Source: Malania oleifera (taxonomy: Eukaryota; Streptophyta; Magnoliopsida; Santalales; Ximeniaceae). From it: a stretch of 64,000 bases of DNA. Positions 27,677 through 60,870 of this stretch are shown piece after piece. The DNA lies in the NCBI RefSeq assembly GCF_029873635.1, contig NC_080423.1, positions 99,134,397 through 99,198,396 of the forward strand, read 5' to 3'. Position numbers and translations under genes: made by a program. The stretch's first letter is position 1, and the number at the start of each line of letters is the position of its first letter. Below the pieces are notes generated by a model. It was not told the DNA's origin and made no database searches. It saw only the letters and a program-made list of their open reading frames with translations.

Positions 27677-27747
27677 TGGTTTTCTTAAGAAGCTAGGACA
27701 ACATTCATGATTTGGCTACAGCAAAGGCCACTGTGTATAACATAGAT

Positions 27748-27833: not shown

Positions 27834-28390
27834 AGATGAAAATGGATGACTTATAAAAGTCATATTTTTTGGTGAAGTATCTATAGTCTCTTTCAACAAC
27901 ACACTTCCATTCCTAATTGGAGTAGAAAAGTGTGGTGCTAATTTACAACTCATGTTCATTTATTGGCCGGCATCATTAATAAATTTTTTTTCTTGGTAAT
28001 ATTTTAGATATGAGAGTAAATAACATGAAATAAAAGTTTATTTTTTCATTTTTATTTATTTTTCCAAGAACATCTTTTATCCAAATGGAGCTTGAGAGTT
28101 ACAATATTGTAAAAATCAACTATGCTATCATTTTTAAAATAATATTACAATATTTTCCTATAAACATAAATTTGTTGTTTATTTTAATATTACAATAGTT
28201 TATTGTTATAAATATCAATGTAATGGTGTGTTATAATACAATATTATAAGGTCGCATATATTATTATATCATTTTTAATACAATAAAATAATATTAAAAC
28301 ATTATATTGTTCAGCATTGTTAAAAATATGTTTATTTTTACTTATTTATTGTGGCTTTTATCACAGTCGTTGGATCGTCTCTAAATCCAA
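27834..28390. other. AT-rich spacer upstream of the kinase gene
   Basis: Upstream promoter region of the minus-strand kinase gene, then AT-rich sequence up to the copia LTR. Beyond the TATA-like site I see no gene or clear motif. Confidence 0.5.
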
Positions 28391-28728
28391 TGGTGGTGTA
28401 GTGTCATATATATGTTTGCCAGTCATGGGAAAATATAGGGATTGCTTGTCATTTTGTGCAAGGTGAGCAAGAGGGGGGTTCTCTCGAGGAAGAACTTTTC
28501 TTCAACGGGTTGAATGTAAAGGGATGTACATGGGATCTGGGATCGGGGAGAGACTAATTAGATCTTGTACTGTCATCGTTTCATAGTGTATTTTTCTTCA
28601 GGTGCACGCTCCGTAGACATAGGCAACCTTGCCGAACCATGTAAAATCTCTCATCTCCATTTTTCTATGAATGTTCTTTGTGTAATTTAGTTTGTTGATC
28701 GAAAGATTAAAATTGTTGTGCGTCAACA
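28391..28728 (+). repeat. 5' LTR of element 3
   Basis: It matches 32765-33103 over the stretch from GTGTCATATATATG to the end. It is followed by the dinucleotide AG and the primer-binding site TGGTATCAGAG. Confidence 0.82.
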
Positions 28729-31700: not shown

Positions 31701-32764
31701 AAAGAAGGAATGTTAAGCCTCCGATCAGGTATGGATTTAAGGACTTAATTGCATTTGTTCTAATTACCAGTAGTGGAGATCCTTCTAATTTTTCAAGAAG
31801 CAGTTCAGAGTTCTGAATGAGATTGTTGGTTTGGAGACATGGTTGAGGAGATGGAGTCTCTTCATAAGAATGGCACTTGGGTGTTGGTTCCAAAGCCCAA
31901 GGACATGAAGTTGATTGGCTATAAGTGGGTTTTCAAAAAGAAAGAACCTACTTCAGAATCAGAAGGGATAAAATATAAGGTCAGGTTAGTAGCAAAATGA
32001 TACAAACAGGAAGAAAGTATAGATTATAATGAAATCTTTTCTCCTGTTATTAAGCATGCTTCTATTAGATCTTTGTTAGCATTGGTTGCCATACATGATT
32101 TAGATTTAGAACAGATGGATGTAAAGACAGCTTTCCTTCATGGTGAGTTGGAGGAAGATATCTTTATGGAGCAACCAGAGGGATTTGTGGAACAATGTAA
32201 AGAGAACCTGGTATGTAAGTTGAATAGGTTTCTTTATGGTTTAAAGCAATACCCTAGGCAATGGTATAAGAGATTTGATTCTTATATGTTGAGGATTGGG
32301 TATGTTAGAAGCAGTTATGACAGTTGTGTTTACTTCAGATTTCTTAACAGTGGTGTATATGTGATCCTTATGTTATATGTGGATGACATGTTGATTGCCT
32401 CTAACAATACTGATCAGCTAAATGTGTTGAAAGCTAGGTTACAGGATGAGTTTGAGATGAAGGATCCTTGGCATGGAAATCACGAGGGACAGACAACAGA
32501 AAAAGTTGTGGTTGTCATAGGGTAAGTATATTGAGAAGGTGTTGGAAAGGTTTAACATGGATAAGGTTAAACCAATAAGTACACCTCTAGCTGCTCATTT
32601 TCAATTGTGTGCTAAACTGTGTCCTTCTACTGATGAGGATAAGTTGGAAATGGCTAGTGTGTCTTATGCCAGTACAGTAGGGAGTCTGATGTATGCTATA
32701 GTATGTAGTAGACTAGACTTGTCATATGCAGTTAGTTTAGTAAAAAAATATATGGCTAAATCCA

Positions 32765-33103
32765 TCGGTTGTGTGGTGTCATATATATGTTTGTAAACCA
32801 TGGGAAAATATAGGGATTGCTTGTCATTTTGTGCAAGGTAAGCTAAAGGGGGGTTCTCTCTAAGAAGAACCTTTCTTCAACGGGTTGAAGGTGAAGGGGT
32901 GTATAGGGGATCTGGGATCAGGAAAAGACTGATCAGATCTTATACTGTCATCGTTTCATAGTGGATTTTTCTCTAGGTGCACGCTCGAAGAACGTTGGCA
33001 ACATTGCCGAACCATGTAAAATCTCTCATCTCCATTTTTCTGTGAATGTTCTTTGTGTGATTTATTTTGTTGATCGGAAGATTAAAATTGTTGCGCGTCA
33101 TCA
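32765..33103 (+). repeat. 3' LTR of element 3
   Basis: Second copy of the LTR, ending GCGCGTCATCA. It shares the CCGAACCATGTAAAATCTCT block with the 5' copy. Confidence 0.82.
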
Positions 33104-33375
33104 AGCCTCTTATAAAATGCCATAATTAAGAATCCCCAACTTCTTCTCAAAAACCTCTTATTTAGTATTTTGTAAGAATTTAAATTACATCAAGTTAGTG
33201 GAATATTTATTTCTTCAAGTAGAATGGGAAAATACAGGAATGTAATATAAACTAAATGGAGATATAATTTTTTTAAAGAAAAAAAGAATCACTCGTGTAA
33301 AAGTTTGTTATGAATTTATAAAGAAAATTAGGAATAGACATTTATTATCTATTTTTCATGTTATGAATTCATAAA

Positions 33376-36568: not shown

Positions 36569-36901
36569 TGTGACAACCTGAATAATAATAATATTTAGAT
36601 AATAAAGAGGAAGGGAAATGGAAACAGTAACAAAAGAAGGAAGTCGACTTCGTCAACGAAGACTGAATTTCGTCGACAAAGAAATACCGAGAGAGATTTT
36701 GAGCCGACTGAATTTCGTTGACGAGGACTGAATTTCGTCGACGAAATTATTTAATGATTCGTTGACGAATGACGTGGTTCGTCGACGAATCTAGTTCTAT
36801 AAATATAGAAGAATCCGAATTTTGTTACTTCACAACTAAGCAAGCTCATTCTCTCTCTCTCTCTCTTCCATTCGGTATTCTCTCTCTCTCTCTCTCTCTC
36901 T

Positions 36902-36988
<87 letters not shown>

Positions 36989-38749
36989 ATCGATTTTGGA
37001 CCAGATTTACGCCAGATCGATAATCCGAAGTCACCACGACGCTCTTGAGAAAGTTCTCTCCAAATCTGCCGGAGTGGATCACTGGTGAAAGCAAGTTGAA
37101 AATCATCCCTAAGTTGAGGTAAGGTTTTCTAAGCCAAATTTAATCTTACGGTAGTTATAGGAAATGATGTACACGTAGAAATACTGAAATTTAGTACTAA
37201 AAGTTTTCATTTTCAGGGTCTTGATCAGGAAATCCTACGGGTGTTAGGCTATGATATTTTAGGAGCTTTCTCAGTAGTCAGGTAAGAGAATAAACTAAAG
37301 CAGTTGCTTTCTTGCAAATTATTGTTATTTATGAGAAAAGTTATTTTTAGGAAAAGCATATATTATATATGTATATTACGAAAGAAATGTACATTTGAGA
37401 AAAATACTGTTACTATGTTGAAATGTATACATATGTATGAGATGCCAGAAACTATGACTTTAGAATACAATGCATTGTTTTTATACAGAACTTGTGTGGC
37501 ATGAATATTATTTTACATGGAATAATATCATGACATGATAAATATACAAATGGAATATGTTTTGAGAAATTATGAAAGAGTACAGTACATTACAATGTAG
37601 AAATACATGATAAATGATTTATTTTCAGAATGATACTATGATATGTGCGGCACAAGGCCGTAATTTATGATATGTTCAGCGCAAGGCCGTAATTTATGAA
37701 ATGTTTGGCTCAAGACCGTAATTTATGATATGTTCGGCGCAAGGCCGTGATTTATGAAATGTTCAGCGCAAAGCCGTAATTTATGAAATGTTCGGCGCAA
37801 GGTCGTGATATATGAAATATTTGGCGCAGGGCCATATTTATGCAATTATGAAAGATGCTATATGATTATGTAATATATGTTATCAGAACCCAGACATTAG
37901 TTTAGTTTAGTTCAGGAGTTCGGTACCGTAACTATTTATAGATTAGATATCTATGTTCAAACTTGTGCTAACCACCTCACAAGCGGGTAGGAGATGGATA
38001 GTCAATGTGGCTTTCAGTGTAGAGTTGTAGACGTCCACCTGCCAGTTCGAACCAGGGTGTGGCCGGCCCATCGTACTTACAGACATATCTGACTCGGCAA
38101 TGGTCCGCCAGCCATTATCAGGTCTCACCTTCAGGCTACACAACTCGTCATAGGGGGTAATACATGACATTAGCTAGCTATTCATCTTGGGTATGTTTTC
38201 AGTATTATCAGTTACAACAGATGTTTTATGTAATATATGACTTATTAGAAAATATGAAAGCATATGATTATTTAGTATAATATGATGAACGTTTACAAAA
38301 ATATGAAATATACTATATGTGTATAATTGTATTAAATATTCATGTTGCCACACAGTTGTATTTAGTTTATTTTCCCTTACTAAAATGTGTCTCACCCCCA
38401 ACATTAATTAATTTTCAAGAGACCCTGAGTGACTGGCGGGTCGTGGCCGCCATTGAGTTTACTAAGCTACCCCGTTAGGAGGGTAAGCAATGTACTAAGA
38501 TCAGAATTATTTTGGTTATAAGATCCTAGATGTATTTTGAAATATTTTTGGAAGAATGTAAATAAATACAGTATTTTGGGAATGTAGATAACTCTGGTAT
38601 TATGTTTTATGGTTTGATGATTGAGATTTTATACTTGTTGCTGCTTCGGTTTCCGCTGTGATTGACAAAGTGTCCCCGCTACCCACGGATTCGGGTTGAG
38701 ATTGTTAATATTTATGTTTCATTTATGTTAAATTAAGCAGGTCGTTACA
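36569..38749 (+). mobile_element. Tekay-like solo LTR
   Basis: A 2181-base unit begins TGTGACAACCTG and ends GTCGTTACA, with a perfect 5-base target duplication TTAAG (36564-36568 and 38750-38754). It has the same plan as the other Tekay-like LTRs: GTCGAC cluster (36640-36790), TATA box CTATAAATA (36796), CT microsatellite (about 36849-36987), GGCCGT tandem array (37645-37840) and the block near 38085-38160. It has no internal region, so it is a solo LTR left by LTR-LTR recombination. Confidence 0.9.
37645..37840 (+). repeat. Tandem array, about 29-base unit with AAGGCCGT core
   Basis: About seven imperfect units of the type GGCGCAAGGCCGTAATTTAT plus ATGATATGTTC. It occupies the same LTR position as the arrays of element 1. 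Confidence 0.85.
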
Positions 38750-39790: not shown

Positions 39791-40405
39791 AATTTATTTC
39801 AATTTGATCCCGCCCCTGATTGTGCAAGTGATAATAGTGACTTATTTATGCATATGTGTTGGGACCCTAAGGTCTCACTAAGGTCTATTGAGCTTACAAT
39901 TTATCCTATATACATGATATGCAGAGATTTATTACAGACATGAAGTAAAGCATGAAGACCCTGAAGATCATTTTATATTGTATTTCTTTATTATTCAATT
40001 TATCTTATATGCATGATATGCAGAGATTTATTACAGACATTTTTCTCCTAATTACTATTACAGACCCAAATTGAATAATAAAGAAATACAATATAAAATG
40101 ATCTTCAATGTCTTCATACTTTACTTCATGTGTCATGTGTATCTGCTAATATAAATCTGCACATGAACTAGATATCCATCAAATACTTGAGTATTTGTTA
40201 TTATCAAAATCAAATGTAACCTATGAGGTCAACAGTAAGGCATAACACGTATGGACCTCAACTCGTAAAATGTGATCAAAATGTATACCAAATCTAGCCT
40301 TGTGCTAAGGGGCGATCAACTGACCCAGCCAGAAGACAAAGGCGATCAACCAGTCTAGAAAATTTTGCCTGCAATGATCTTCTTATTATCTTTAATGATT
40401 AGTAA
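39791..40405. other. Spacer containing a strong inverted repeat
   Basis: Apart from the inverted repeat at 39939-40130 and a direct repeat (CATGATATGCAGAGATTTAT at 39913 and 40013), I see no gene. Confidence 0.5.
39939..40130. repeat. 63-base inverted repeat with 66-base loop
   Basis: Left arm 39939-40001 (starts CATGAAGTAAAGC) and right arm 40068-40130 (ends CTTTACTTCATG) are complementary at 60 of 63 positions. A weaker complementarity extends further outward. The loop repeats 29 bases found just before the left arm. A transcript would form a long hairpin. It could be a MITE-like foldback, a local inverted duplication or a small-RNA precursor. Confidence 0.8.
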
Positions 40406-40978: not shown

Positions 40979-43451
40979 AGTACGCGGTTAATCGGATGTA
41001 GTAAGAGATTGACCAATTTGGCCAACAAAAAGACTCTAACAAACAAAAACGAATTAGCTTTCATCCAATCTTTGTATATATGCTAAGCCTTGAGAATGTT
41101 AAAGAACAGACTTATACTAAATATTCAAATCCTTGTTCTTTCATTTTCTCTCAATCTCTCTTTGTGCCTTATTCGCTTACCTATGAAAGAACATCAAGAC
41201 TCTTGAACTTTTCACTGTGATCATTTTTTGAGAGTTTATTTTGCGAGCTCAAATTAAATATCTTTCTCTTGAGGATTTTGTTTTGCAAGTAGTGTTCTAT
41301 TGGTCAATTGGTCTGTGAAAGCAAGGATTGTATTGTGATTGTCATGTCCCTATAGAAAATAAGGGGCATCTTGATTTACTTTTCTTTTATTGATTTCCTT
41401 CATCTCCATTAAAACAAAGGGAAATTAATGGAACCTCGAGACAATAGGTTTTGAGAGAGTAGACATAGTTTAGTTGATAAACCACTATAAAAGGAATTTA
41501 CAAATATTTCTTCCTTCTCTTTTTTGATTTTATTGTTTTTATATTTTTGTGATTTGCTTGATTATTTTATTTGTTTTAATTTTTGTATCAAACATTTAAT
41601 TTTTTATTAAATTCAATTCACCTCCTCGCCTTGGATTGCTACTTGGACTAACAAAATAAATAGCATATGATTTATTCTATATTTAGAAAATAAAATTTAC
41701 ATTAATGTGATATTGGGTTCTAATCCATACTTTGCACAGAGAAATTACATAAAAGATTCCAAAATTTTAAGAACATAATAATAATCGTACAATAGGTTAA
41801 AAATAGTTTTCATTTCTTTCGCAACTTGAAAATTTGGAGATTTAATATTTACACAGGAAAAGAGATTTTTTTTTTTTTCTTATTGAATAAGTGTAACCAT
41901 TACCACTATTTTATTTTCTTAGGTGTAATTGGGCCAATTAATCTTCTATAGTAAAAATATTATTGATTTATCTTAATTTTATTAAAAGAGTAAGATTGAT
42001 TATGTGTTAGTTTATTTTAATATTTTAAAATTTTATTAATCACCTTAGAAAAGGCATGTACCTTGGAGTTTGACATCTGTTTAATTGAATCTCGGCATCT
42101 ATTTCATTTAGTCTTTGAAAAGGACATATATCTTGGAGTTTTATTCATTGAGTCTTTAATTAATATTTTCATAAATTCAAAAATATTAAATGTATATTGA
42201 TTTAAGGTCTTGTGTGCCTATAAATAGATCCTATCATTTGAATTTTTAAAGAGTTTGACAACGTAAGAAAGGTATTTTATCTACACCTTTGGATTTTTCC
42301 ACTTGTATAGAATTGGAAAGAGTTGTACAATTTAAATCAGATTGTTGTATATTGAGGGGGACAAATCAAGTGAAGTTTTACTACAGTGAAAAAAATTGCG
42401 AAGGACTTGAATCTCCTTAAAGAGAGTGAGATATTTATGTTTTAGTCTAATTGTGAACCATATTTATATTTGATTTTTGTTTAAGTTTATTGCAATATTT
42501 GCACCAAATTCCTAACAATTCTAAGATGAATTCAAAAAATGTGGAGCCTATAATTGGAGCCCAATGAAAATACTAAAGATTTCAATAAATCCTTTAGGTT
42601 TAAAGGAGTCAACTTCAGGAAATAGAAAGACAAGGTACTCTTCTTCTTTAATCTTCTCAAGGTTGCTATATACTTACTGAAAAAACATCCGAAAAAAATT
42701 AATACCGATAACATGAATGAAGATAAGTTGACTGATCACTTGTGATCACACACTCTCCATGGTTTTTTTCTAAAATTTTATATTTATTTTGAAAAGTAAT
42801 TATAGAAAAATAAATAGGACTTGAAGGATATTTAAATTTGATTAGAGAATAATTATAATGATACTTAACTTGAAGAGTGTTTTGGGATGGTTATGTGTAG
42901 TTATAAAAGGTATTTTGAATAGTCTAAAAATCATTAAGGCAATAGTTATGATTATTTAGAAGGACACTTTGGGATAGTAATAGATAGTTACAAAGATATG
43001 TTGGGTAGTTTAAAAACTACCAAGAAAAGGGAATTTCTTTTTAGCATTAGAAATTTTCTCATGTTTTTTCTATTTAATATTTTCAGTCCCGTTTGAGACT
43101 TGAGAAATATTAAGAAGAGAATTATAGTTTCATGTTTGATTATCAAGAAAAGTGAGAAAGAAAACAAAAAATAACTATAATTTACACATCATTAATATTT
43201 AATTCTTTTTAAATTTTAATTATATTAAAAGAATTCTCATTTTTAATAATATTTAATATATAAAGAAAATATAATAAAACATAAATTTTCTCTTCATTTT
43301 TCTTTCTTTCCCTTTTCCTAAGTAAAATCCTTAACTCAAAGGAACCTTCAAGTTTTAATCAAACCCTGAGAAGAAAAATTGTAACTTTCTCAATCCACAC
43401 ATTGAGTGGGAAAGCTAGGAACAACTTGTGGAAATTTAAAAACAAAGGAAT
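40979..43451. other. Long AT-rich stretch without a recognisable gene
   Basis: The part 40984-41660 looks like the tail of a decayed LTR (CAATTCACCTCCTCGCCTTGG at about 41622). The rest is AT-rich without coding signal, except for copy B of the AT-rich dispersed repeat (about 43060-43340). Confidence 0.45.
43060..43340 (+). repeat. AT-rich dispersed repeat, copy B
   Basis: It carries TGTTTGATTATCAAGAAAAG (43133), then TTTACACATCATTAATATTT, and ends near CCCTTTTCCTAAGT. The same order of motifs occurs in reverse at 54395-54665. Confidence 0.55.
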
Positions 43452-43467
43452 GCTCTAACTACATAAT

Positions 43468-43681
43468 GCCCAACTCGGTTAGTTCAAGTGGTAAGGGTGA
43501 CTTGTGACTTTGGTGGTCCCAAGGTCACGGGTTTGATTCCTCCTTGAAAGTTTACCTTAGTGAATTACCAAAAGTACTTCAATGGGTGAGCAGCTTTCAC
43601 CCCCCAGGTTTTGTGCCGCACCATAGTGTCCAAAGTGGCGCAAGGGTGGCTGGAGTCCTTCGATTATCAAAAAAAAAAAAA
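43468..43681 (+). mobile_element. tRNA-derived SINE
   Basis: A 214-base unit with a polymerase III A-box-like TAGTTCAAGTGG (43480-43491), a B-box-like GGTTTGATTCC (43530-43540), a tRNA-unrelated body and a 13-base poly(A) tail (43669-43681). It has a perfect 16-base target duplication GCTCTAACTACATAAT. The left copy is 43452-43467. The right copy begins at 43682 and is cut after GCTCTAAC by the next insertion, resuming as TACATAAT at 52518-52525. The family name is unknown to me. Confidence 0.9.
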
Positions 43682-45110
43682 GCTCTAACTATTAATAGAT
43701 GATGTATTCTTAAATTATTAGTTTAGAGTTGTTAATTCAGTTGTTAGTTCATTACATTTACTAGTATAAATATTGTCACTTGCATGTACAACTTTTCATT
43801 ATTTCGAAATATACATTTTATTTATTTAACATGGTATTAGAGCATTTTCTCTTTCTCTCTCTCAGTTTCAAGAAAGCTTGAGAGTTCTTCCATGTCAATG
43901 TTCCCTACGAAGAGTTCTTGGTTCCTCCGCCGAGCGTCCTGCCATATTCCTTTGCAAATCCTCTTGTGGTCTCGCCTCTCAGAGCGCTCGCCTCACAGAT
44001 CTGCTCCGCTCTGACGCTCTCCTCTGTAGATCTTCCTATTTTCGTTTCCGACAACACTCTTCACCTCATCCTTGTCTTCATTTCCTTCAGTCATAGCCGT
44101 TCGAAGGTTCGTCATAGCTCTCATAGCCACCGCCACCAGTTCGCCCTTCCCGTACAAATCCTCTGCAATCGCCGAGACTGCGGACTTTTTGGCGACCGGC
44201 TCGTCGCTCCATTCCGACATTACTATCAAGTCGGATCGGGATCGTACCCCCTGCGAGCTCATTTCGGCTCTCAATGCAAATCGAGATCTTCCTTTGCCTT
44301 GTCCGATCCTCTTGCGGCCTTACCTCTCAGCCCTCAACTCTCCAAGTTTTCCAGTGACCTCATGCTTTCCAACTACTTCTATGGCTCCGGTGTCCTTATT
44401 CTGGCACCCGTGTTAGAATGTGGTTGCATTTTTGGAGCTCGATACCTCCGCTTTCTTTGATTTTTTTTAGCTACAGAGATTACAGATCTAGAGCCTCGCA
44501 CTTCAGAGTGACTTTGCAGCTCTCCACTCTCATCTCTGGTTTGATCTGCTAGTCACTGTCATTGTCTCCATCTCATCTCCGACTCACTCGTATTTGGTCT
44601 AATCTGTTGGTCACGCCATTCCCTTGCTCCAGCTATGCCGTGTCTCATCACTCCTTCTCAGAGACAGTTGATCTCTTCATCAAAAGCAACTTCAGATCTT
44701 GCCTCAAAGTGTTCGATAAATTTCAGTTGATGCTACAAATTTCTGGTTCCGCTTTGTCTTCTTCTTCTTCCAAAATTTCTTTCTGATAGACGGCGCTGTC
44801 TTTGATCAACACTGAGTATTTTCTCTTGAACATCAAGTTCCAATGGTTCTTGTTTCGCGTTTTCAGTTCTTTGAGTTCAATTGAAGAATTCATCATTCCT
44901 CAAATTCATCTGTTGTGGGATGATTTTGTTAATCCCTATTTTTTTTACACCATGGGTTTCATTTTCTTGATTTCAAATTTGGAATCTGAAATTTCAATTT
45001 GCTCCTTCAACTGTGCATCTCTCTCGTTGTGCCGACGTCGACTCTGCTATTCTCTCGTCGACGTTGACCTTACCTCTTTCTTGTCGATGTCAACAGTACA
45101 TTTCTCTCAC

Positions 45111-45297
45111 TGAAAGAAGAAGCTATTGAATATTTTCTACATTTATTTGTTCATATGTACATCCCAATATATAATATGATTACGTATTCTAAACAAGGAA
45201 ACAATTTCCTTACTGAATAATATCAAATCCCCCATATTTACCCACTTCCCTAATTTGTATATTATTTACAATGATACTCGGGATTGGGATTTTAAAA
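45111..45297 (-). repeat. 3' LTR of copia element 4
   Basis: 187 bases, 179 of them identical to 52101-52287. It is flanked by the CTCAC target duplication on the left and by the purine tract on the right. Confidence 0.92.
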
Positions 45298-45867
45298 CTC
45301 CCCCTCAAGTTGGATCATAAATATTAATCATCTCCAAGTTGCTAATAAGATCATCAAAGCTCTGTCGTCCCAACTCTGTAGTGAGAATATCTGCAGTTTG
45401 TTCCTTGGTTGGTACATAAGTCATACATATAATTCCTTCTTCAATTTTCTCTTTAATGAAGTGTCTGTCTACTTCCACATGTTTAGTCCTATCATGTTGA
45501 AATGGATTGAGATAAATGTTGATAGCTGCATTATTGTCACTGTAGAGTTTGATAGGAAAGTTCACTGGGACCTGTAATTCCTCCAAGAGTTTTCGTAACC
45601 ATAATCTTTCACATATCCCTTGAGTGACTGCTCTGAATTCAGAGTCAACACTACTACGAGCCACCACATTCTGTTTTTTGCTTCTCCAAGTTACTAGGTT
45701 TCCCCAGACGAATGTACAATAACCTGTGGTGGACCTTCTATCTTCTACTGATCCTGCCCAATTTGCATCTGTCAAGATCTCTACTTCCTTACTTTCACAT
45801 TTCTTAAAGAAGAGTCCTCTTCCCGGGGATCCCTTGAGATATCTAAGGATCTTGTATACAGCATCTA

Positions 45868-48116
45868 TGTAACGACCCGAATAAAATGGAAATTAAATAA
45901 TGAAAGAAAAGGGATATGGAACCTGGAAACAGAAGGAAGCCGTCGACTTCGTCGATGAAGGCTTTGAAGATTTCGTCGACGAACACAGAGCTTCGTCGAC
46001 GAGACAATATCGAGAAAGGTTCTGAGGCAGCCTGAATTTCGTCGACGAACACAGGGCCTCGTCGACAAAATTTGTGAAGGACTCATCAACGAAGGTCGGG
46101 CTCATCGACGAAATCCTGTTTTATAAGAGGGAAAAATCCGGGAGAAATATCATTTTTTTCAAAACCTCTCTCTCTCTCTCTCTCTCTCTACGGTTCTCTC
46201 TCCCTTCTCTCTATGTTTTTGGCCCCACCAGTCGTCAGATTAACGATCTGAGGCTACCACGACGCTCCTGGCGAAGTTCCTTGCGAGTTTACCAGAGCGG
46301 ATCGTCAGGAAAACGGAGTTGGGAATCATCCCAGAGTTGAGGTAAGGCTTTTTAAGCCATATTTGGTCTTGCACTAGTTATAAGAAATGTTGTGCGCATA
46401 AAAATACTGAAGTTTAATACTGGGGGTTTTCAGTTTCGAACTATTGGTCAGGAAACCCCTCAGGTGTTAAACTTGAATGCTTTTGGGTGAAAACTTTCTA
46501 TCTAATATTTGGATTTTTGGCAGTTGAGGAAAATATTGTACGCTTTGAAATACTGAACTTTAATTCTGAAATTTTTCATTTTCAGAGTGTTGAGTTAGGA
46601 ACCCTGCGGGTGCGGGGCAATTTTATTAGGGGCTTTCCAGAGATCAGGTAAGGGGATAAACTAGGCTAGTATTGTTTTGGAAAATGTTTATATATATATA
46701 TATAGTTATCATTTGATTTATGGAAAATGCATACGATTATGTATATATGTCTTATATTTGCAAAACACTGTGAAAATGATCGTATGTTGAATATGTGGAA
46801 AATCTACTGTGTGGCATGAGTAAAAATGTTGTGAAATGTTATTTTCTGGGAATGTGGGTGAGATGGATTTTTATGATGGAAAAATCGACGTACGGGTCGA
46901 GATGTTTTCATATATATATATGGATGTGAATTGCCAGCGTATGGGTCGTGTTATGTGATTTGCCGGCGTACAGGCCGTGCTATGTGACTGTGATTGCCGA
47001 TGTACAGGCCGTGCTATGAGATATGATCTGCTAGAGTACGGGCTGTGCTATGTGTAGCTGGCGTACGGGCCGAGCTATGATAAAATGTGTAATACCGGCG
47101 TACAGGCCGATGATTTTCATGATACACGTATATATGTGAAATGATATGATTGATGTGAAAATAAATGATATGAGATATTTATGTATGACGGTTTCATTAT
47201 ATGTATATGATATCAGAATCTGGTTGGCTTGGTTTAGGCTAGCACTTGCACGGTACCGTTGCTATGTGTCCATGGTTCTCGTGATCATGATATCTGTGTT
47301 AACGTCGCTGTGCGGAGTGGTGTGAGATTGGATGGTCAATGTGGTTATGTTTAAGGAGTGTGCTGTTATCGCCCCTGGTGTACGGACCAGTCTGGGTAGA
47401 CCCATCGGACCTACAGACTAGACTATTGACTTAGCAGTGGTCGGCCACCATTGTCAGGTCCTGCCTTCGGGCCACACAACCCAGTCATGTGGGGGTAATA
47501 CATGACAACAGCCAGCTAACCTACCAGAGATTGTTTTATGTTATTATTATGATATGAGATGAGATATTATGTGATGAAAATGCAGTAAGTTCTGTTATGT
47601 TTTGAAATACATATGTTTTCCCAAATTTGATAAATAGTATTGAATATGTTATATATGATATATGTAGAACACGGATACTCATGTTGCCATACACTAGTAT
47701 TAGTTTATTTCCCTTACTGAGAGGTGTCTCACCCCTAAATTTCATAAATTTTTTAGGAGCCGCACATAGGAGAGCGGGAAAAGCCCCGCTGACATAGTGT
47801 AGATTATCTGCCCTTTTTGAAGGGTAAGCTTTTGGTAGGGGTAGTACGTTTTTGTGGGAATTGTCCCTAGATTCATTTTTGGGATGTATATGATGAGAGA
47901 TAGTGTTTGTAGTACTCTGGTATGTGTTATGCACATTATGATGAGATGTATATGATTTTATACTTTCTGCTGCGTTGGCTTCTACTGTATGTTTTGTTAT
48001 ATCCCTGGTACCCACGGGTCCAGGTGGATGGTGACCTACTGAGTTGTGATGTTTGATGTTGATATTATTAATATATATATATATATATATATGAGAAAAA
48101 TGAGCGGGTCGCGACA
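45868..48116 (+). mobile_element. Tekay-like solo LTR inside copia element 4
   Basis: A 2249-base unit begins TGTAACGACCCGAA and ends GGGTCGCGACA, with a perfect 5-base duplication ATCTA (45863-45867 and 48117-48121). GTCGAC cluster (45950-46110), TATA-like TTTATAAGAG (46121), CT tract (about 46163-46190), GGCCGT-core array (46890-47115) and the block near 47390-47510 follow the Tekay-like LTR plan. It separates the RNase H and RT parts of the copia element and is its youngest passenger. Confidence 0.92.
46890..47115 (+). repeat. Tandem array with GTACAGGCCGTGCTAT unit
   Basis: About seven imperfect units of 25-40 bases built on GGCGTACAGGCCGTGCTATG. It is the positional equivalent of the arrays in the other Tekay-like LTRs, with a different unit but the same GGCCGT core. 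Confidence 0.8.
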
Positions 48117-51100
48117 ATCTAAGTGAATTTATTTTGGTGAATTCATGTGTTGACTTACTACACTGACTACAAAAGCAATATCTGGTCTAGTATGTAATAG
48201 GTAGATTAGCTTGCCAACCATTCTTTGATACATCTCCTTTTCTATTGGTTTTTCATAGTCTTCAACCCTTTTTACTGTCTCCATCGAGGTTTTGCTGGGT
48301 TTGCATCCCAGCATGCTAATTTCAACTAGGAGGTTAGTAACATACTTTCGCTGAGAAACACTAATTCCCTTTTTCGTTCTTGCCACTTCCTTGCCCAAAA
48401 AATACTGCATCTGTCCCAAGTCTTTAACTTCAAATTCAACAGCCAGAACCATCTTCAATCTCTCCATTTCTACAGTATCATCACTAGTAAGGATTATATC
48501 ATCAACATACACTATTAGAATTGTTCTCTTACCTCCTTCAGACTGTTGGAAGAACAATGTATGGTCTGATTGCCCTTGTCGATAACCTTGATTCTTTCGT
48601 ACTTTTGCGAATCTGTCAAACCACGCTCTAGGAGATTGTTTGAGGCCATATAAGGATTTCTTGAGTTTACACACTCTGTTTTCTTCACCTGTTTCACTGA
48701 ATCCGGGTGGTATAGTCATGTATACTTCCTCTTCTAATTCTCCATTTAAGAAAGCATTTTTAATATCAAGTTGTTGTAGTGGCTAATCTAAATTGGCTGC
48801 CAAGGACAAGAGAACCTGAACTGTATTTAAGTTTACCACTAGTGCAAAAGTTTCAATATAGTCAATGTCGTAAGTCTGTGTAAAACCTTTTGCAACAAGT
48901 CTGGCTTTATATCTTTCAATTGTTCCATCAGATTTATATTTCACTGTGAATACCCATTTACAACCCACTGGCTTCTTCCCTTTCGATAGATTTGTCAACT
49001 TCCAAGTTCCATTTTTTTTCTAGGGCTCGCATTTCTTCCATGACTACCTCTCTCCATTTCGATATTTCTAGAGCTTCCTGAATGTTCTTTGGCATTTTCA
49101 TCCTGTCAAGGTTAGAGACAAACGTACGATATCCTGTAGACAAACTTTTATTAGACATGTATTTAAACCAAGGGTATTGAGTACATGATCTGGTTTGTTT
49201 TCTGATTGCAATAAGTAAATTGATATCATCAGGTGCAAGATTATCAGAGGAAGACTTAATTACTAGATCGGGATTGGGCATGGGTTCATGGTTATTCGGA
49301 GCCATCACTGGTTCCAACGCTCTTGGTGCCTCAGGTATGAGATTCTCCATATCCTTTGTTTTCAGCTTTCTTGAGTAAACAAGTATGTCTGCGTTGTTTT
49401 GCTCTCATGTATCTCCCCTTGAGGGTAAGTGTTCTATTGTGTTTAGAAAGTCAAGAAGTAATGCAATGGAAGGCTCGATAGATGGATCATAGAATGGAGT
49501 AACTAGAAAGAATGGCGCAAATTCAGTAGTAAAAAGGTCAAAGAACCGATCTTCACTCCATTTCTCCCCCTAAAAAGAGGGTTTTGGGAAATAAGGAGTG
49601 GTTTCAAAGAAAGTGACATCAAGACTAACGAACAATCATTTTGAGACCGGATCATAGCATTTGTAGCCTTTCTGGGTAGGCGAATAACCAAGGAAGACAC
49701 ATTTAATGGCACGAGGATCCAATTTATCTCGATGGTGTGCATGAACATGAACAAAAGCAGTACAACCAAAGATTTTCAGCGGGCGACTGGAGGGGAGTCG
49801 AGAGGTAGAAAAGTGTTCCTAGAATTTTTGAAGAGGAGTGGCAAATGAAAGTGCTCGACTCAGCTTTCGACTAATGAGATGTGTAGCTGTTAAGATGGCA
49901 TCACCCTAAAAATAATTTTTCATGTTGGTAGTAAACATTAATGCCCGGGCTACTTCAAGTATATGTCTATTTTTTCATTCAGCAACCCCATTTTGTTGAG
50001 GGGTATCCACACAAGAACTTTGATGAACAATCCCATTATCTTGAAGATAAGTCCCCAGGATAGTATTAAAATATTCTGTACCATTATTAGTACCTAAAAT
50101 CTGAATATGAGTCTGGAACTGTGTATGAATCATGGAATGGAAACTGATGAAAATGGAGTAGTTTCAGTTTTGTCTTTCAGTAAGTGGACCCAACAAAGAT
50201 GAGTATGGTCATCAATAAAGGTAACAAACCATTTTGTATTGGTGCGATTGAGGGAACATGAGGGACCCCATACATCACTGTGAAACATAGTAAATGGGTG
50301 AGATGGTTTGTATATGGATGATGGAAAAGAAGTACGACGATGTTTGGCAAGCTCACACACTTCACATTGAAACTCAGAAGCCATTTTATTTGAACAAATG
50401 GAAGAAAACAAACGTTTTAAATATTGAAAATTGGGATGACCCATCCGTGAATGCCATAACAAAAGTTCATTATTTCTAGAAGTAGATGCAGAATCACAAA
50501 TTGCAGTATTACATAGTTCACTCAAACTTGCCTCCTTAAAGTAGTAGAGTCCCTCATACGCTTTAGCAGTGTCAATCGTCTTCCCCGATGATAGGTCCTG
50601 AAAAACACAATGAGAGGAAACAAATTTAGCAGAACAATTTGAGTCTTTGGTTAACTGACTGATGGATAACAGGTTGCAAGATAACTTGGGGACATGTAGG
50701 ACAAATTGTAAGTTAAAGAATCAGATATGCGAATACTTCCTTTTCCAGCAACTGGTGTGAGAGAGCCATCTGCAATTTTTACACTCAAATTCCCGGCATA
50801 TGGTGAGTAAGATGAAAAACATTGATAAGACCCAGTCATATGATCGGATGCACCCGAATCAATTATCCATGGAGATTTGTAGCAGAATGTAGTATTTAAA
50901 GCTGATAGATAATTACCTCGGTGAACCAGGGAACTAGAGGAAGACTGATCCGATGTTTGAATTGACGAAATCATCTTATATATCTGATCCAACTGTTCAG
51001 GATTGAATGCACTACTAGGAGAGGTATTGGTGTTTTCTCCTTGTAATCTTTCAGTTGATCCGTTAGTGCTGGCCTGGTACCCACGATTTTTTTGGTATTG

Positions 51101-52100
51101 TCTCGGTTTCTAATCTTCCGGTTTTCCATGAATCTCCCAACAAGTATTTTTTTTAAATGACCTGTTTTTCAGCAATGTTCGCACCATAATTTACCTTTTT
51201 GTGGTCATTAACTAGGTCCCCCTGGGCCTTTCGAAACAAGAGCTGAAACATCCGGCCCAGCGTGTCCAGCGTGTCCAGCGTGCCCATCTAATTTTTGGGC
51301 AGATACGGGTACGGGGATGTCTAGCCCAGCAGGTTCATTTTAAGGCCTTAGCATCACACGCCTCCTATTCTCCTTCCTCCTGACCTTTACGAAGACCTCT
51401 CGGGTTGAAGGAAGAGGTTGCCGACCGAGGATCCGTCCCCTCACGTCGTCGAGCTCTCGATTCAGGCCAACAAGGAACTCAAAGACCCTCTCGTTTTCGA
51501 GCCTCCTTCAGTATCGTGTGCTGTCACCGGAGTACTCCCACTCCTCGTCGATGCTCAGATCGAGCTCCTGCCAGAGATGAGTCATCTCAATGAAATACTC
51601 AGTAACGCCTCTCTCACCTTGCCTCATCTGCCACAATCAGGTCTTGATTTCGAAGATTTGCGAGTAGCTTTCGATGTCGGAGTATGTCTCACATACGGCT
51701 TCCCAGACTTCCTTCGCCATTGGCAAGAACAAGTAGACTTTTCCAATTGATGGCTGCATCAAGTTGACGAGCCAAGTTGTGACTATGGAGTTTTCGGACC
51801 TCCATCTTTGCAAGGCTATAGCGTCGGTAGGGTCTGGTGTTCTCCGCTCACGGGTAAGATAACCTAGCTTACCTTTTCCCTCAATCACCAATTTCATGGA
51901 TTGAGCCCATTCACGGAAATTTTTTCCGTTTAATTTTTCCAATGAGAGTGGAAAGGTTGTGTTATCCAACCCATTCGAACCCCCAACGGATGTGACCTCT
52001 GAGTCACCGTTGATATTTGCAGAAGAGGTAGAGCCTTTACTGTTGACGGTGTTGTTGGCCATTGTTTAGTTAAGGTTAAGAAAACCTAGCTCTGATACCA

Positions 52101-52287
52101 TGAAAGAAGAAGCTATTGAATATTTTCTACATATCTTTGTTCATATGTATATCCCAATATATAATATGATTATCTATTCTAAACAAGGAAACAATTTCCT
52201 TACTGAATAATATCAAATCCCCCATATTTACCCACTTCCCTAATTTGTATATTATTTACAATGATACTCGAGATTGGAATTTTAACA
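52101..52287 (-). repeat. 5' LTR of copia element 4
   Basis: 187 bases, directly beside the primer-binding site. It is followed by the target duplication CTCAC. Confidence 0.92.
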
Positions 52288-53309
52288 CTCACCGATCAGT
52301 TACTACTTTTCTTCATCTTTTATGCAAGATGGAGATGTTAAATCTTCATTCACCATCTCCATCTTGAGAGAGCGTATTAGCATATGTTGTATTCTTAAAT
52401 TATTAGTTTAGAGTTGTTAATTCAATTGTTAGCTCATTACATGTACTAGTATAAATACTGTCACTTGTACAACTTTTCATTATTCCAAAATATACATTTT
52501 ATTTATTTAACCCTAACTACATAATTTCAAATGGGCAAGCAAGTTTTCAAATTTTTAAACTTCAGCCGACAATAATTTTTCACAATCAATAAATAAATGA
52601 TAGTCCCCCTAACCATTGAAAAATGGTACACTGAATGGAATGGATGAAGATATAGTGAATATGTAAATTTTTAAAAATCAATTCCATTTAATTCTTACAT
52701 GCTAAATAAATATTTTTTTTCAAACAAAATAAAGGTGCCAACATTCCCTAAGTTAAATGTGTTTATCCCGGATGGGTTAATCTCTCCAACTTATTATGGA
52801 TGTGTTTTGTTTTGAAGGTTGTTGTTTCTTATTTGAGTATGTTAGACATTTGATAGCATAAATGTACGTAAATATAATCTTGACCATTAATAAACATAAA
52901 TGTTTTTTATAAAGTTTTGGTAATTTAGGTTGTTGATATGCTAAAAGAATCTAGGAGTTCTAGAAGTGAAATATTGAGAAAAGCTCTAAATTTTATTTTC
53001 ACAATCATGTTGAGTTATGGTTTATATTTAAATGGGTTATTCACTTGAAGTTTATTACAAATGAGAGGATTTAGGGACTCGCGGCTCAAAAGGGTTATTC
53101 ACTTGAAACCTGTTAAAAACTAATACTTGAAACTTCTATACATGAAACTTCTTCGCCTACTTAAATCAGCTCGGCGAGGGTATGTTGGGGGGTTCATCCC
53201 CGCAATATGGTGTTATATGTTTGAGTTAAAGCAATGTAATTATATTAGCATATGAGATATTTTAGAAATGTTTATATGGAGATATATATACATATTGTAA
53301 CCAAAGATT

Positions 53310-53971: not shown

Positions 53972-54394
53972 CATTTGATTAGATAGTCATCTTTTTATCA
54001 AATTTTGAATAAAAAGAAGATTATCAAATTTGACCCCAATAATTGATAAAACTTATATTTTGAAGTTTAAAGTTTGAGAATTAATTTACAAATTAAGAAA
54101 CTTAATAAAGTCTGCAAAGGCTCATTGAACATACCAATATGTTCTCCAAATTTCTTCATGACAAACTAAAGGTTTAAATTCTTTTAAAAAATAAATAAAA
54201 GCACTTAAACAAGCTAGGCAAATTATATAATCAAATTAAAGTCCAATTTAATAAATATTGATACACTCATTCAAGCCCACACATGTAATTTCCCAGCATG
54301 CCAACAAGCTCAATTAATAAAGCAACCAATTAATTTTACTAAGGCTTTGCTATTTTTCAAGTTTCGTGCCTTGGATTAAAAGTTTTACTTGAAG

Positions 54395-54665
54395 AAAATA
54401 AAATAAAATAAAGAGAAAATTTATTTTTCCTTACATTTTAAATTCATTTTTCCTAACATTTTCTTACTTTATTAAATACTATTATGACTAAAAGTTAAGA
54501 AAAAATTAAATATTAATGATGTGTAAAAACAAATTTTAGTTCATAATTTTAGTATTTTTTTTATGTTCTTTTTACTTTTCTTGATAACCAAATATAAAAA
54601 TATGAATTTTTGATATTTTCTTTTACTTCGTTTTAAATTTTTTGAGTTCCAAACAACACCTTACC
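54395..54665 (-). repeat. AT-rich dispersed repeat, copy C
   Basis: The complement carries ATATTTGGTTATCAAGAAAA (54577-54596) and TTTACACATCATTAATATTT, matching copy B in order. Confidence 0.55.
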
Positions 54666-55200: not shown

Positions 55201-57219
55201 TCACCAGATATCCCTGCATGAACAAGACCCATCTTTAAAATGGTGAAAACAGTTTGGGTCCTTTATGATGATTTCTCGTCCTACCATCTTAGAAATAACC
55301 TTTGCAGAATCATGGCAGCTGTGGCACACCCGTAGGTTCTTGGTTAAACGAATTGTTGCCTCTTCTTGCGTACTGATCAGACCAAACGACAAGGCCAGCA
55401 TCTCACTGTGTCCAATTGGAATGCACTCTCGCTCGTCCTCTACGTCGTGGAAACTGAAGTCTGAATAAACCTTCTGCTTGTTCTCTTCATCGTCCATTCT
55501 TCTCATCAAACACTGTAACTCCCAATATATTCTCTCTGATCTTGGGTGGGATAAGTCCCCTGTTCCAAACACATGAACTTTGTTTTTCAACTCTATCCAA
55601 CTACAACCTTTCTTTGGGTTCAAACCCATGTCTCTAATCATTCTTCTCACTTTATCCACCATGTCCAATCTTCCACTTTCAGCATACCAGTTCGACAGTG
55701 AAACATAGTTTTCAGCATTAAGCGGTTCCAAATCACAGAGCTGATCTATGACTTGCTTTCCCATTCTAGTATGCCGGTGGATTCTGCACCCATGCAGCAT
55801 TGCTCTTAAAATATCCGGATTCCTTTCAATCTGCCGTTCCTTGATAAATATTTTTGCCTCATCAAAAAGCCCAGCACGAGCTAGTAGAGAAACCATTAAA
55901 ACAGAGTGTACAACCAGAGGTGCTCTAATGCAGTTGAAGTAGAACTTTCCCTCCTCAACCATGCATGCTGTACTACAAGCATGAAGCACAGCAGCATAGA
56001 TGGTTTGGTCCATTTCATCGCCCAAGTTCTTCTCCACCTCGCGGAACAAATCAACTCCAAGCTCTCCCTGTCCATGAAGGCTATAGCCCAATATCATCAC
56101 AGTCAATGAAACAACATCTCTATTTTTCATCCCTTTAAAAATCTTTGCAGCATACTCAATGAATCCTGACTTCACGTACATGTCCATAACAGCATTCTGA
56201 ACTGCAAGATTCAAGTCAATTCCATTTCTAAGAAGATAACCATGAATTTCTTTGCCATTCTTGTGAGCTGCTACTCTTGCACAAGCTGGAAGAATGCTCG
56301 ATACGGTGAGAGAATCAGGTTTTAGCCCTTCCGCAATCATCTGCCGACATAACTTAAGACCCTCATTGAACCCTCCATTCTTCACGTATGCCTGGACCAT
56401 TGCTGTCCATGAAATGGTATCTTTCAAGGGCATTTTGTCAAAAAATGCTCGAGCATGTTGGATACTTCCACAGTCCGCATACATTTTCAAAAGTGAATTA
56501 CTCACTAAAGGATCAAATTCTAATCCACACTTCTTGGCAATCTTGTGAACCCTTATTCCTTCTTGCAGTGATTTTGACAGGCAACAGGCACCAATTGCAG
56601 TTGTCAATGCCACTGGATCTAGCTTAGCTCCTGATTCCACCAATTGATTAAACACATGAATAGCCGAAGTGGGTTTCTCCTCCAATATGTACAACTTAGC
56701 TATCAAAGTCCAAGAAACTAGATTATTCCCGCCTGGTGAATTACAAAGCAACCATTTTGCAGTGTTCGCACTATCAAGGATTCCATACATTTCCACGAGG
56801 GCTGATATTACGTAGTCGTTGGAGGAGAAACCGAGTTTTAGTGCCTGCCCGTGAACCTGCTTCCCAAAGAATAAGCTGCTACTGGAGAGGCGACAAGCAG
56901 TTAAAATGCGGGGAAGAGTGTGCTTGTCAGGACGCACACCGCGACGCAGCATTTGCTGATAAGTCAACAAAGCAAGGAAGGGATTCTTGTCAGCGAGATG
57001 GGTCTGGAGGCAATTGTTCCAAGCAAAGGTGTCTGAAAGAGGAATTTCATCAAACATTTGATCGGCCGAAGCCAAGCAAGATTTGTCCACTCTCTGGGCC
57101 AGAGTCCTTCGACTGTGAGTTAGGAGACGGAGTGTGGACTTGCATTGGGTTGTACCATCGCCAAATGGGTTCTCAGTTCTGAAGAAACAATGCATATATG
57201 GGGATGAAAGGGCCTCCAT
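55201..57219 (-). CDS. PPR protein of the PLS-DYW class, terminal DIW
   Basis: A single open frame of 672 residues without intron, as usual for this family. Seen: a Ser/Arg-containing N-terminus that could be an organelle transit peptide, PLS-type PPR repeats over about residues 60-520 (for example DTISWTAMVQAYVKNGGFNE and NAVMDMYVKSGFIEYAAKIF), E-type motifs, then a DYW domain from the PG box (PKKGCSWIEL, about 535). The DYW domain has the deaminase-like HSE (604-606), CHSC (632-635), the FHHF/CSC zinc ligands (657-668) and ends DIW rather than DYW. Family knowledge: these nuclear proteins bind organellar RNA and many carry out C-to-U editing. All zinc and catalytic residues that I can place are present, so editing activity is plausible. 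The target is unknown. The start at 57219 is the first in-frame ATG. The gene looks intact. Confidence 0.93.
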   Translation of the reverse strand: MEALSSPYMHCFFRTENPFGDGTTQCKSTLRLLTHSRRTLAQRVDKSCLASADQMFDEIPLSDTFAWNNCLQTHLADKNPFLALLTYQQMLRRGVRPDKHTLPRILTACRLSSSSLFFGKQVHGQALKLGFSSNDYVISALVEMYGILDSANTAKWLLCNSPGGNNLVSWTLIAKLYILEEKPTSAIHVFNQLVESGAKLDPVALTTAIGACCLSKSLQEGIRVHKIAKKCGLEFDPLVSNSLLKMYADCGSIQHARAFFDKMPLKDTISWTAMVQAYVKNGGFNEGLKLCRQMIAEGLKPDSLTVSSILPACARVAAHKNGKEIHGYLLRNGIDLNLAVQNAVMDMYVKSGFIEYAAKIFKGMKNRDVVSLTVMILGYSLHGQGELGVDLFREVEKNLGDEMDQTIYAAVLHACSTACMVEEGKFYFNCIRAPLVVHSVLMVSLLARAGLFDEAKIFIKERQIERNPDILRAMLHGCRIHRHTRMGKQVIDQLCDLEPLNAENYVSLSNWYAESGRLDMVDKVRRMIRDMGLNPKKGCSWIELKNKVHVFGTGDLSHPRSERIYWELQCLMRRMDDEENKQKVYSDFSFHDVEDERECIPIGHSEMLALSFGLISTQEEATIRLTKNLRVCHSCHDSAKVISKMVGREIIIKDPNCFHHFKDGSCSCRDIW

Positions 57220-57241
57220 TTCAGCTCTCCAGTGTTCCTAT

Positions 57242-57944: not shown

Positions 57945-60870
57945 AACAACAACAAGCCTTAAGTCCCACTAGGTCGGGTCAGGTACATGAATCCTTTCGT
58001 GCCAATTCACTCCCTCTAGAGCATTTTCCTCTATTAGATTAAGGGCTATTAAACCTTTCCTTGCTACCTCATTCCAAATTATTTTAGGCCTAGCCCTATC
58101 CCTTTTCATGCCAGAAAAAATAACTCACTCATCCTCACAGGTGCTTTACTAGGCTTGCGTTTCAAATGCTTGGCCTTCTAAACCGCCCTCCCTTATCTTG
58201 TTTTCAACCAGTGCTATACCTAAATTATTGCGTATATACTCATTTCTTACTTTATATTTTAATATTAAACCACTCATTCACCTTAACATACACATCTCAG
58301 CAACTTTCATTTTTTGTATATGTTGTTTCTTAGTTGCCCAACATTCTGAATCATAAAGCATAGTTGGCCTAGTAGTCGTCTTAAAAAACTTTCCTTTTAA
58401 TTTTAAAGGTATTCTACAATCAAACAACACATCTAACATACTCCTCCATTTTAACCAACTTTTCTTAATTCTATGTGCTACATCTTCTTCAATTTCCCCG
58501 TCATCTTGCATAATAGATCCAAGATATCTAAATCTATCAATGCTATTAATCTCTTGATTATCCAGTTTAGTCTTCTCTCTATGGCTACTCCTTACATTAC
58601 TGAAATTACATTTCATATATTCTATCTTATTTCTACTTATCCTAAACCCTTTAGACTCTAATATTTTTTGGATATTCCTAGTTAGTTCATCATTACTAAA
58701 GTAAAAAGATAAGGACTCAAAGTAAAACCTTGATACACACCAATTGTGATTGGAAACTCTCTAAAATCTCCTCCTGCAGTCCTAACGCTAGTCACTTCGC
58801 TATTGTACCTATCCTTATTGACCTCCGTATATCTACTACGAACTCCCTTCTTTTCTAAAACCCACCAAAAAACTTCCCTAGATACTCTATCATAAGCTTT
58901 CTCTAGGTCAATAAAAATCATATACAAATCCCAATTCTTGTCCCTAAACTTCTTCTCAAAAGATAAATAGCTTCTATTGTTGATCTCCTAAACATAAACC
59001 AAATTGATTTTCTGAAATCTTCATTTCTAATCTTATTCTATGTTCAATTACCCTTTCCCATAATTTCATCATATGACTCCTAATTATAATTCCACGATAG
59101 TTATTACAACTTTTAATATCGCTTTTGTTTTTGCACAAACGTACTAACATTCTTTTCCTCCATTCTTCTAACATGTTCTTGATTTTTATAATAGTATTGA
59201 ATAGATTAGTTAACCTAATAATTCTTTTATCTCCTAAACATTTCCAAACTTTAATTTGTATTTTATCCAATTCTATAGATTTCCCACTCTTCGTATTTTT
59301 TAATGTCATCTTAACTTCAAAGACTTTAATTTTGCAAATAAATCTCCTATTTTTAACCTTCTCCTCATTTGCCACTTCCAAGTTCAATATTTCATTTTGG
59401 TTTTCATTAAACAACTTATCAAAGTATCTCCGTCGCCTCTCTTTCATATCTTATTCTCTAATTAAGATATTATCATTCTCATCCTTTATACATTTTACAT
59501 CACCTAAATCTTTACATTTTCTTTCTCTAGCGGTAGCAAATTTATAAATATCTTTTTCTCCTTCTTTTGTATCAAGTTTAGTATATAAAGTATCATAAGC
59601 ACTATGTTTAGCTTCATTGATAACCTTTTTTACATTTTTTCTCACTTCTATGTGTCTTTCAAGATTTTCTATATTTCTACAATTTTTCCATATTTTATAC
59701 CAATTTCTTTTTGTCTTAACAGCTTTTTGGACTTCTTGATCCCACCACTAACTTTCTTTAGTACCCAAGTATCTCCCATTGGATTCACCTAAAACCTCAT
59801 TTGCTATCATTTTGATAGAATTTGCTATTTTATTCCAAACAGTATTTGCATCAACCTTATCCCCTACAGTCCAATAACACTCACTGTTCATTTTATCTTT
59901 GAATTTTACTATATTATCTCCCTTCAAGTTCCACCATCTAGTCCTCTTGTGCTGATTTATACTACTTCTTATCTTCCATTTTTTAATATGCATATCTAGT
60001 ACTAAAACTCTATGTAGTGTAGCCAAATTTTTATCTGGAATAACTTTACAATCCTTGCAAGATAGACGATCCCCATTCTTAGTTAAGAAGAAATTTATTT
60101 GACTTTTATTATACCTACTCTTAAAAGCTATTAAGTGTTCTCCTCTTTTTATAAACCAAGTATTCAATATAACCAAATTGAGAGACATGCAAAATCTAAG
60201 ATTGTATCACCGGCTTCATTTTTATCTCTATATCCATGGCCTCTATGTATCTTCTCCTATATTATCCTTGTCAATGTGACCATTCAAAGCAGCTCCTATG
60301 AATGTCTTTTTAGACATTGGTATCCCCTGTAAAATACTATCCATATCTTCCCAAAATTATCTTTTCAGATTTTCTGCTAAACCTATTTGGGGATCATATG
60401 CACTAATGGCATTCATCAATCTATCCTGATTTTAATGATCCATCCCCTATTCTTATAACACCTACTACATTATCTTTTATGTCTTTATCTACAATAATAC
60501 ACACCCCGTTTTTATGTTTCTCTTTACAAGTGTACTATAGTTTAAATCCTGATTTTTCAATTTCTTTTTCTCCTACCCATTTCATCTCTCGAAGACAGAT
60601 TAAGTTAATTTTTATCCCAAACATTATTTCCACTAATTCCATATTTTTTTTCCCATAAGAAGCCCTATATTCCAAATTGCTAATCTCATCTTAGTTTCTT
60701 GAGCTACCCTCTTCCTTTTATACTGACCCATTTTACTCCCTTGAACCAAGTGAATTTGGTAAGAACTCATGATAATAAGATCTGATAAAGTTTTATGCTA
60801 ACTGTCAACTACCTAACACAACCCTACTCCTTTATCCCGGCTTAAGACCAGCTGTGTGTACAAAGAATTT
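57945..60870 (-). mobile_element. RTE-clade LINE, minus strand, inactive
   Basis: Read on the minus strand it runs from about 60870 to 57945. An endonuclease begins near 60690 (MRLAIWNIGLL), with later blocks such as SLNLVILNTWFIKRGEHLIA (near 60170) and RTRWWNLKGD (near 59940). The reverse transcriptase follows (about 59400-58280), with FIDLEKAYDRVSREVFWW (58910), and then RFRYLGSIMQDDGEIEEDV and CWATKKQ. The 3' end has GACCCGACCTAGTGGGACTT and a (TTG)n tail, as known for plant RTE elements. Anything odd: the RT passes from LFTLVMMN almost directly to ILESKGFRISRNK, so the block that normally holds the catalytic [FY]ADD is missing, and several stops and frameshifts split both domains (for example near 60390, 59750, 59455 and 58680). 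It is a dead copy. The 5' boundary is approximate. Confidence 0.88.

Follow-up and report, generated by a model that had tools for sequence, protein, structure and literature searches.

Structure of the locus and its target duplications

The window, that is, the whole stretch of 64,000 nucleotides of Malania oleifera DNA that was analysed (contig NC_080423.1), contains four mobile elements, one within another, which together occupy approximately 9 kb and whose description agreed to the base with the original prediction (features lie on the plus strand unless the minus strand is given). The outermost layer is a tRNA-type SINE with a poly-A end (43468..43681), which is preceded by an intact left copy of its 16-bp target duplication, GCTCTAACTACATAAT (43452..43467), the only exact copy of that duplication within the window. 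The right copy had been predicted to be split by a small LTR element, and this was verified: its first part, GCTCTAAC, is located at 43682..43689, with the final 5 bp doubling as the left CTAAC duplication of the small element (43685-43689), and its second piece, TACATAAT, is located at 52518-52525, or, when CTAAC is counted on both sides and the right CTAAC (52513-52517) is thus included, reads CTAACTACATAAT (52513..52525). The small element forms the second layer and spans 43690-52512. It consists of a left LTR of the form TATTA...TTTAACA (43690..43831), a non-coding interior that contains the primer-binding-site-like sequence TGGTATTAGAGC and runs through the left CTCAC of the next element (43832..45110), the 3' part of the interior with a purine-rich stretch ahead of the LTR (52293..52374), and a right LTR (52375..52512). 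The third layer is a copia element on the minus strand (45111-52287), flanked by CTCAC at 45106..45110 and 52288..52292. Owing to its orientation, the LTR at 45111..45297 is the 3' LTR of the element and that at 52101..52287 its 5' LTR. The part of its interior at 45298..45867 is the reading-frame end, which is the RNase H side by position and has an ORF without a Pfam match, and the part at 48117..52100, recognized from Pfam domains and a collinear relative, has broken frames. The fourth layer is a Ty3/gypsy solo LTR of 2,249 bp (45868..48116), TGTAACGACCCG...GGGTCGCGACA, which lies within the copia between two copies of ATCTA (45863..45867 and 48117..48121).

All four duplications (16-bp, CTAAC, CTCAC, and ATCTA) were exact, in register with the element ends, and at the positions predicted for a four-layer nest. 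When positions in the window are paired at random, about 0.17% of the pairs match over 5 bp and 5 per million match over 13 bp (3.8e-08 for the latter from base composition alone). These duplications also bear on whether the nest could have been created by a false join of repeat-rich contigs during assembly. Repeats are prone to misjoins, and the published Malania oleifera assembly lists 596 gaps (PMC10199050). However, four layers with exact and rightly placed duplications on both sides are not expected of a misjoin, and the window does not contain a single N, which makes an assembly artefact exceedingly improbable.

The nest has genes to its left and right: it is flanked by a long host ORF for a leucine-rich-repeat kinase (24986-27715, minus strand) and another for a PPR-DYW protein (55201-57237, minus strand). 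The window also contains other repeats. Two pairs of gypsy-type LTRs, 78-1132/8708-9755 (87%) and 13066-15105/20276-22364 (about 85-89%), have related pol regions between them, and the region at 36569-38749, which is about 70-75% similar to gypsy LTRs and has no evident partner, is probably a solo or truncated LTR. A pair of copia-type LTRs (28381-28730 and 32756-33105, 88.6%) has an RVT_2 match between its members, and a MITE-like sequence at 39938-40131 has 64-bp inverted repeat arms that are 95% complementary and 66 bp apart. Further dispersed repeats are found in the host flanks of the nest, at 43092-43361 and from about 53008 rightwards, of which the left one matches 54366-54608. Two ORFs at 58278-59450 (minus strand) resemble by eye a broken non-LTR (LINE) reverse transcriptase and gave no Pfam match.

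Identity of the four elements

The outermost element has the features of a tRNA-derived SINE, namely a length of 214 bp, the poly-A end, the 16-bp duplication, and dispersed copies. The genome search for it, starting from 1,605 first-look candidates, listed 40 matches including the element itself (39 others), and the best-scoring among those listed were 82-83% identical. When 15 of these 39 relatives were aligned, at least five (L002, L003, L004, L005, and L082) were seen by eye to have long flanking duplications. The sequences TAGTTCAAGTGG and GGTTTGATTCC in the SINE presumably represent A and B boxes, whose promoter consensus we take them to fit, and a tRNA gene call on the SINE was negative.

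The small element, which is approximately 1.64 kb (about 1,641 bp) when the copia is not counted, has the structure of an LTR retrotransposon, with two direct LTRs, TGGTATTAGAGC after the left LTR, which we take to be a primer-binding site of the initiator-methionine type, and CTAAC on both sides. A Pfam scan of its four ORFs gave no match. The search for its family gave 313 candidates, of which 40 were scored, and it listed 77 matches, the longest of the best matches being 78-84% identical. Eight relatives have both LTRs and are about 1.5-2.2 kb in length; 5-bp duplications next to them, searched at offsets of up to 8 bp, were exact in four of the eight and had one mismatch in the other four. 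The 5' end was TATTA in 12 of 12 copies inspected there, a count that is biased because these copies were selected for alignment from the first base of the LTR. The small element thus belongs to a multicopy family that is non-coding and has atypical TA...CA ends, which is mildly unusual.

Members of this family (43690-45110 and 52293-52512 in the window, and L020-L048) share a common 5' interior, whereas their 3' interior exists in two or more versions. The small element in the window is of the L020 type to the left of the copia and of the L021/L025 type to its right, and so, judging from these alignments, it looks like a mosaic of the two versions, as though it had arisen by recombination or were an intermediate form. 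We rejected the idea that two small elements had been rearranged through the copias that they carried, since no mismatch is found in the CTCAC, CTAAC, and 16-bp duplications across the locus. Capture of a host gene by the interior found no support, as the four ORFs had no Pfam match.

Alternatively, the small element could descend from a formerly autonomous copia that has since decayed, without being a copy from a mobile non-coding family; the order of the nest would then be unchanged. Its presumed initiator-methionine-type primer-binding site and its 5-bp duplication are compatible with such an origin, and its ends differ from TG...CA by a single base at the 5' end. At one locus (L040), moreover, a second related LTR is located approximately 5.7 kb away; it was found in a search with the LTR only, intended to find an autonomous partner, which listed several LTR-like places beyond the earlier listing of small elements. 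However, a 1.2-kb piece from between these distant LTRs matched other repeat DNA and not the copia of the nest, the four ORFs of the small element had no Pfam match, and the eight two-LTR relatives span only about 1.5-2.2 kb, from which it follows that the short form itself was copied. We therefore regard a decayed copia as unlikely and favor a mobile non-coding family. Its members would presumably have been moved by proteins supplied in trans by another copia element, and neither the LTR-only search nor the piece from L040 identified such a helper.

Two kinds of known elements resemble this family. TARE1 of tomato is likewise a multicopy element of the copia type with short LTRs that begin with TA and end with CA (PMC3701649). 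In contrast to the small family, which has no coding match, spans 1.5-2.2 kb, and has longest best matches of 78-84%, TARE1 is described there as autonomous and recently inserted (PMC3701649). A TARE1-like autonomous copia was accordingly rejected as the identity of the small element, on the grounds of the four ORFs without a Pfam match and of the size of the two-LTR relatives. TRIM elements have in common with the small element LTR ends, the absence of coding capacity, and a small size (PMC4717578), but at approximately 1.64 kb the small element is larger than most of them: more than 77% of the TRIMs in that survey are under 1,000 bp, and up to 23% are 1,000 bp or more (PMC4717578). Our literature searches, which were aimed at neither Malania oleifera nor the small family, found no description of it. 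It is possible, and we propose this tentatively, that the family of the small element is an undescribed and long-lived one, non-coding and of the copia type, with TA...CA ends and a size between those of most TRIMs and of ordinary copias.

The assignment of the third layer to Ty1/copia is based on Pfam matches that follow one another in the order expected for the minus strand: gag_3 (gag, 51637-52065), Pol_BBD (beta-barrel domain, 50651-51109), gag_pre-integrs (gag-pre-integrase, 50130-50720), and RVT_2 (reverse transcriptase, 48129-48782), all on the minus strand, with no Pfam match to an integrase core in the element. One relative, L091, is collinear with the right part of the copia (48117-52287) at 92.8% identity. 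Another, L090 (G000:C1:127464020-127468420), lacks two large interior blocks matching 49017-50772 and 51411-52024 of the window and is 88-92% identical in the remainder; it is possibly a deletion derivative.

The innermost element had been described as a Tekay-like solo LTR. That it is a Ty3/gypsy solo LTR was supported through one relative, L089, in which five of the six listed ORFs between two LTRs of the same family were scanned and matched zf-CCHC, RVP_2, RVT_1, RT_RNaseH, Integrase_H2C2 (below the cut-off), and SH3_Tf2-1, an order typical of gypsy elements. Tekay chromoviruses are marked by a chromodomain after the integrase and by a Tekay-type reverse transcriptase. The support thus reached to Ty3/gypsy and not to the Tekay lineage; the five scanned ORFs of L089 gave no Pfam match to a chromodomain. 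The best-scoring relatives of the solo LTR are 85-87% identical to it. Because a lone LTR sits within an intact duplication, its most likely origin is a full gypsy element that inserted here and whose two LTRs later recombined. In having a lone LTR with an intact 5-bp duplication and a two-LTR relative with gypsy domains in the same genome, it is like other Ty3/gypsy solo LTRs, and no difference from them was found.

Order of arrival

The order predicted from the duplications, with the SINE first, followed by the small element, the copia, and the gypsy LTR, was upheld by the duplications, by uninterrupted relatives, and by junctions that occur only once in the genome. The duplications, the boundaries, the uninterrupted relatives, and the unique junctions were all demonstrated, and we consider it highly probable (approximately 95%) that four separate retrotransposition events took place at this locus in that order. 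The SINE must have preceded the small element, because its uncut 16-bp target, GCTCTAACTACATAAT, was no longer available once the small element had cut it. In the case of the two inner layers, the order follows from the nesting, unless a host element moved in already loaded with its passenger.

This last proviso means that the gypsy LTR could have arrived within the copia, or the copia within the small element, so that the order of nesting would not be the order of arrival. Nesting by itself is compatible with such hitch-hiking, and there is a precedent in soybean, where a subfamily was amplified while carrying a foreign solo LTR (cited in PMC3701649). When the assembly of the window itself was searched (1,494,336,490 bases in 510 contigs, 13 of them chromosome-sized), however, both junctions were found only once in the 1.49-Gb genome with up to 3 mismatches allowed, that between the copia and the solo LTR as a 33-mer and that between the small element and the copia as a 32-mer; control words read backward gave 0 matches, and a source copy that had decayed by more than 3 mismatches would escape this search. 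In addition, all 12 copia relatives that were fetched, from the 39 others listed, are uninterrupted at the site of the solo LTR and lack it. They align base for base at this site, with a single ATCTA in 11 of them and a single ATTTA in 1, and one relative (L080) is missing about 36 bp slightly beyond it. For 29 other small-element loci, each taken as the match plus approximately 1.5 kb on each side, no match to the copia LTR was obtained, although in some of them this span does not reach the copia site. The LTR distances of the second and third layers also lean in the direction expected without hitch-hiking, non-significantly. The junction searches therefore largely close this loophole in this genome, and we consider hitch-hiking very improbable.

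Relatives of the small element likewise continue past the copia site without a copia. L020 and L026 align to 45109 and 45108, respectively, and diverge immediately to the right of the site; the alignment of L042 reaches 45110 and picks up 3 bp later at 52325; and L021 and L025, which differ to the left of the site, match from TCAC (52289) onward to the right, with no copia ahead of it. No single small-element relative aligned closely on both sides, as a base-for-base empty copia site would. For the nest as a whole, a search for the two host flanks with a single GCTCTAACTACATAAT between them found 0 matches in the same genome with up to 3 mismatches, and neither a paralogous nor a second-haplotype locus for comparison was found there. 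Among the scored candidates, in a search that skipped very common words, no other match was listed for the left flank (43363-43451) or for the right flank to about 53007.

In the sequence of separate insertions that we favor, the tRNA-type SINE would have inserted first, creating its 16-bp duplication of host DNA. The small LTR retrotransposon, non-coding and with TA...CA ends, would then have entered the right duplication of the SINE, duplicating CTAAC, and the copia would have entered the small element on the minus strand, duplicating CTCAC. Finally, a Ty3/gypsy element would have entered the copia, duplicating ATCTA, and later lost its interior through recombination between its LTRs. SINE insertion is target-primed, and insertion of the three LTR elements is integrase-mediated with a 5-bp stagger.

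LTR divergence and meaning of the nest

The LTRs of the small element and of the copia had been predicted to differ by about 8% and about 4%, respectively, and these values were confirmed: 11 of 138 aligned bases differ for the small element (8.0%, plus one 4-bp gap; K2P 0.085 +/- 0.026) and 8 of 187 for the copia (4.3%; K2P 0.044 +/- 0.016). The further suggestion that these differences agree with the order held for the direction of the ranking and not for the separation of the two values, as the 95% intervals overlap (4.3-13.3% for the small element and 2.0-7.9% for the copia) and the difference is non-significant (Fisher P = 0.23), with a posterior probability of 0.92 that the LTR divergence of the small element exceeds that of the copia. 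LTR age was therefore rejected as an independent proof of the order. It had also been proposed that a copia seeming older than its host would refute the order, and this proposal failed: in a survey of plant genomes, 1,042 of 4,126 nested pairs (25%) had LTR ages that ranked wrongly (PMC7251063). Because a quarter of the surveyed pairs rank in this way, LTR age neither proves nor refutes the order. The innermost layer, being a lone LTR, offers no LTR pair for dating. For the SINE, a star model with 15 of the 39 listed relatives gave a terminal branch of about 0.118 substitutions per site, which is larger than half the LTR distance of the small element (0.042), itself larger than half that of the copia (0.022). 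However, an arithmetic estimate gives only a 1-2% chance of zero mismatches in the 16-bp duplication at 0.118 per site, and because this duplication is intact, the branch is an upper bound and not an insertion date, which suggests that the true insertion of the SINE is younger.

Nested LTR retrotransposons are well documented in plants, with 1,491 pairs in 12 genomes (PMC6911290) and 4,126 pairs in 15 species (PMC7251063), and it is standard practice in these studies to read relative age from nesting (PMC6911290, PMC7251063). The nest described here is like those pairs in that one element lies within another and the inner is younger than the outer (PMC6911290, PMC7251063). It differs from them in that its outermost layer is a SINE, which was cut in its duplication and not in its body, and in that four layers are found in 9 kb. 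It is ordinary plant genome history, and a neat example rather than a new kind.

The nest provides a secure relative clock at one locus, in which four events are ordered without a substitution rate, and it illustrates that the divergence of short LTRs alone cannot carry an order of insertion (8.0% versus 4.3%, P = 0.23). If the non-coding family with TA...CA ends is new, it would be one more case among the families with atypical ends that have been reported. If the small element does belong to such a long-lived family, its copies would need a TA-accepting integrase from a helper that has perhaps been lost from, or is unrecognised in, this genome, and the family would be a system in which to test trans-mobilisation with non-canonical ends.
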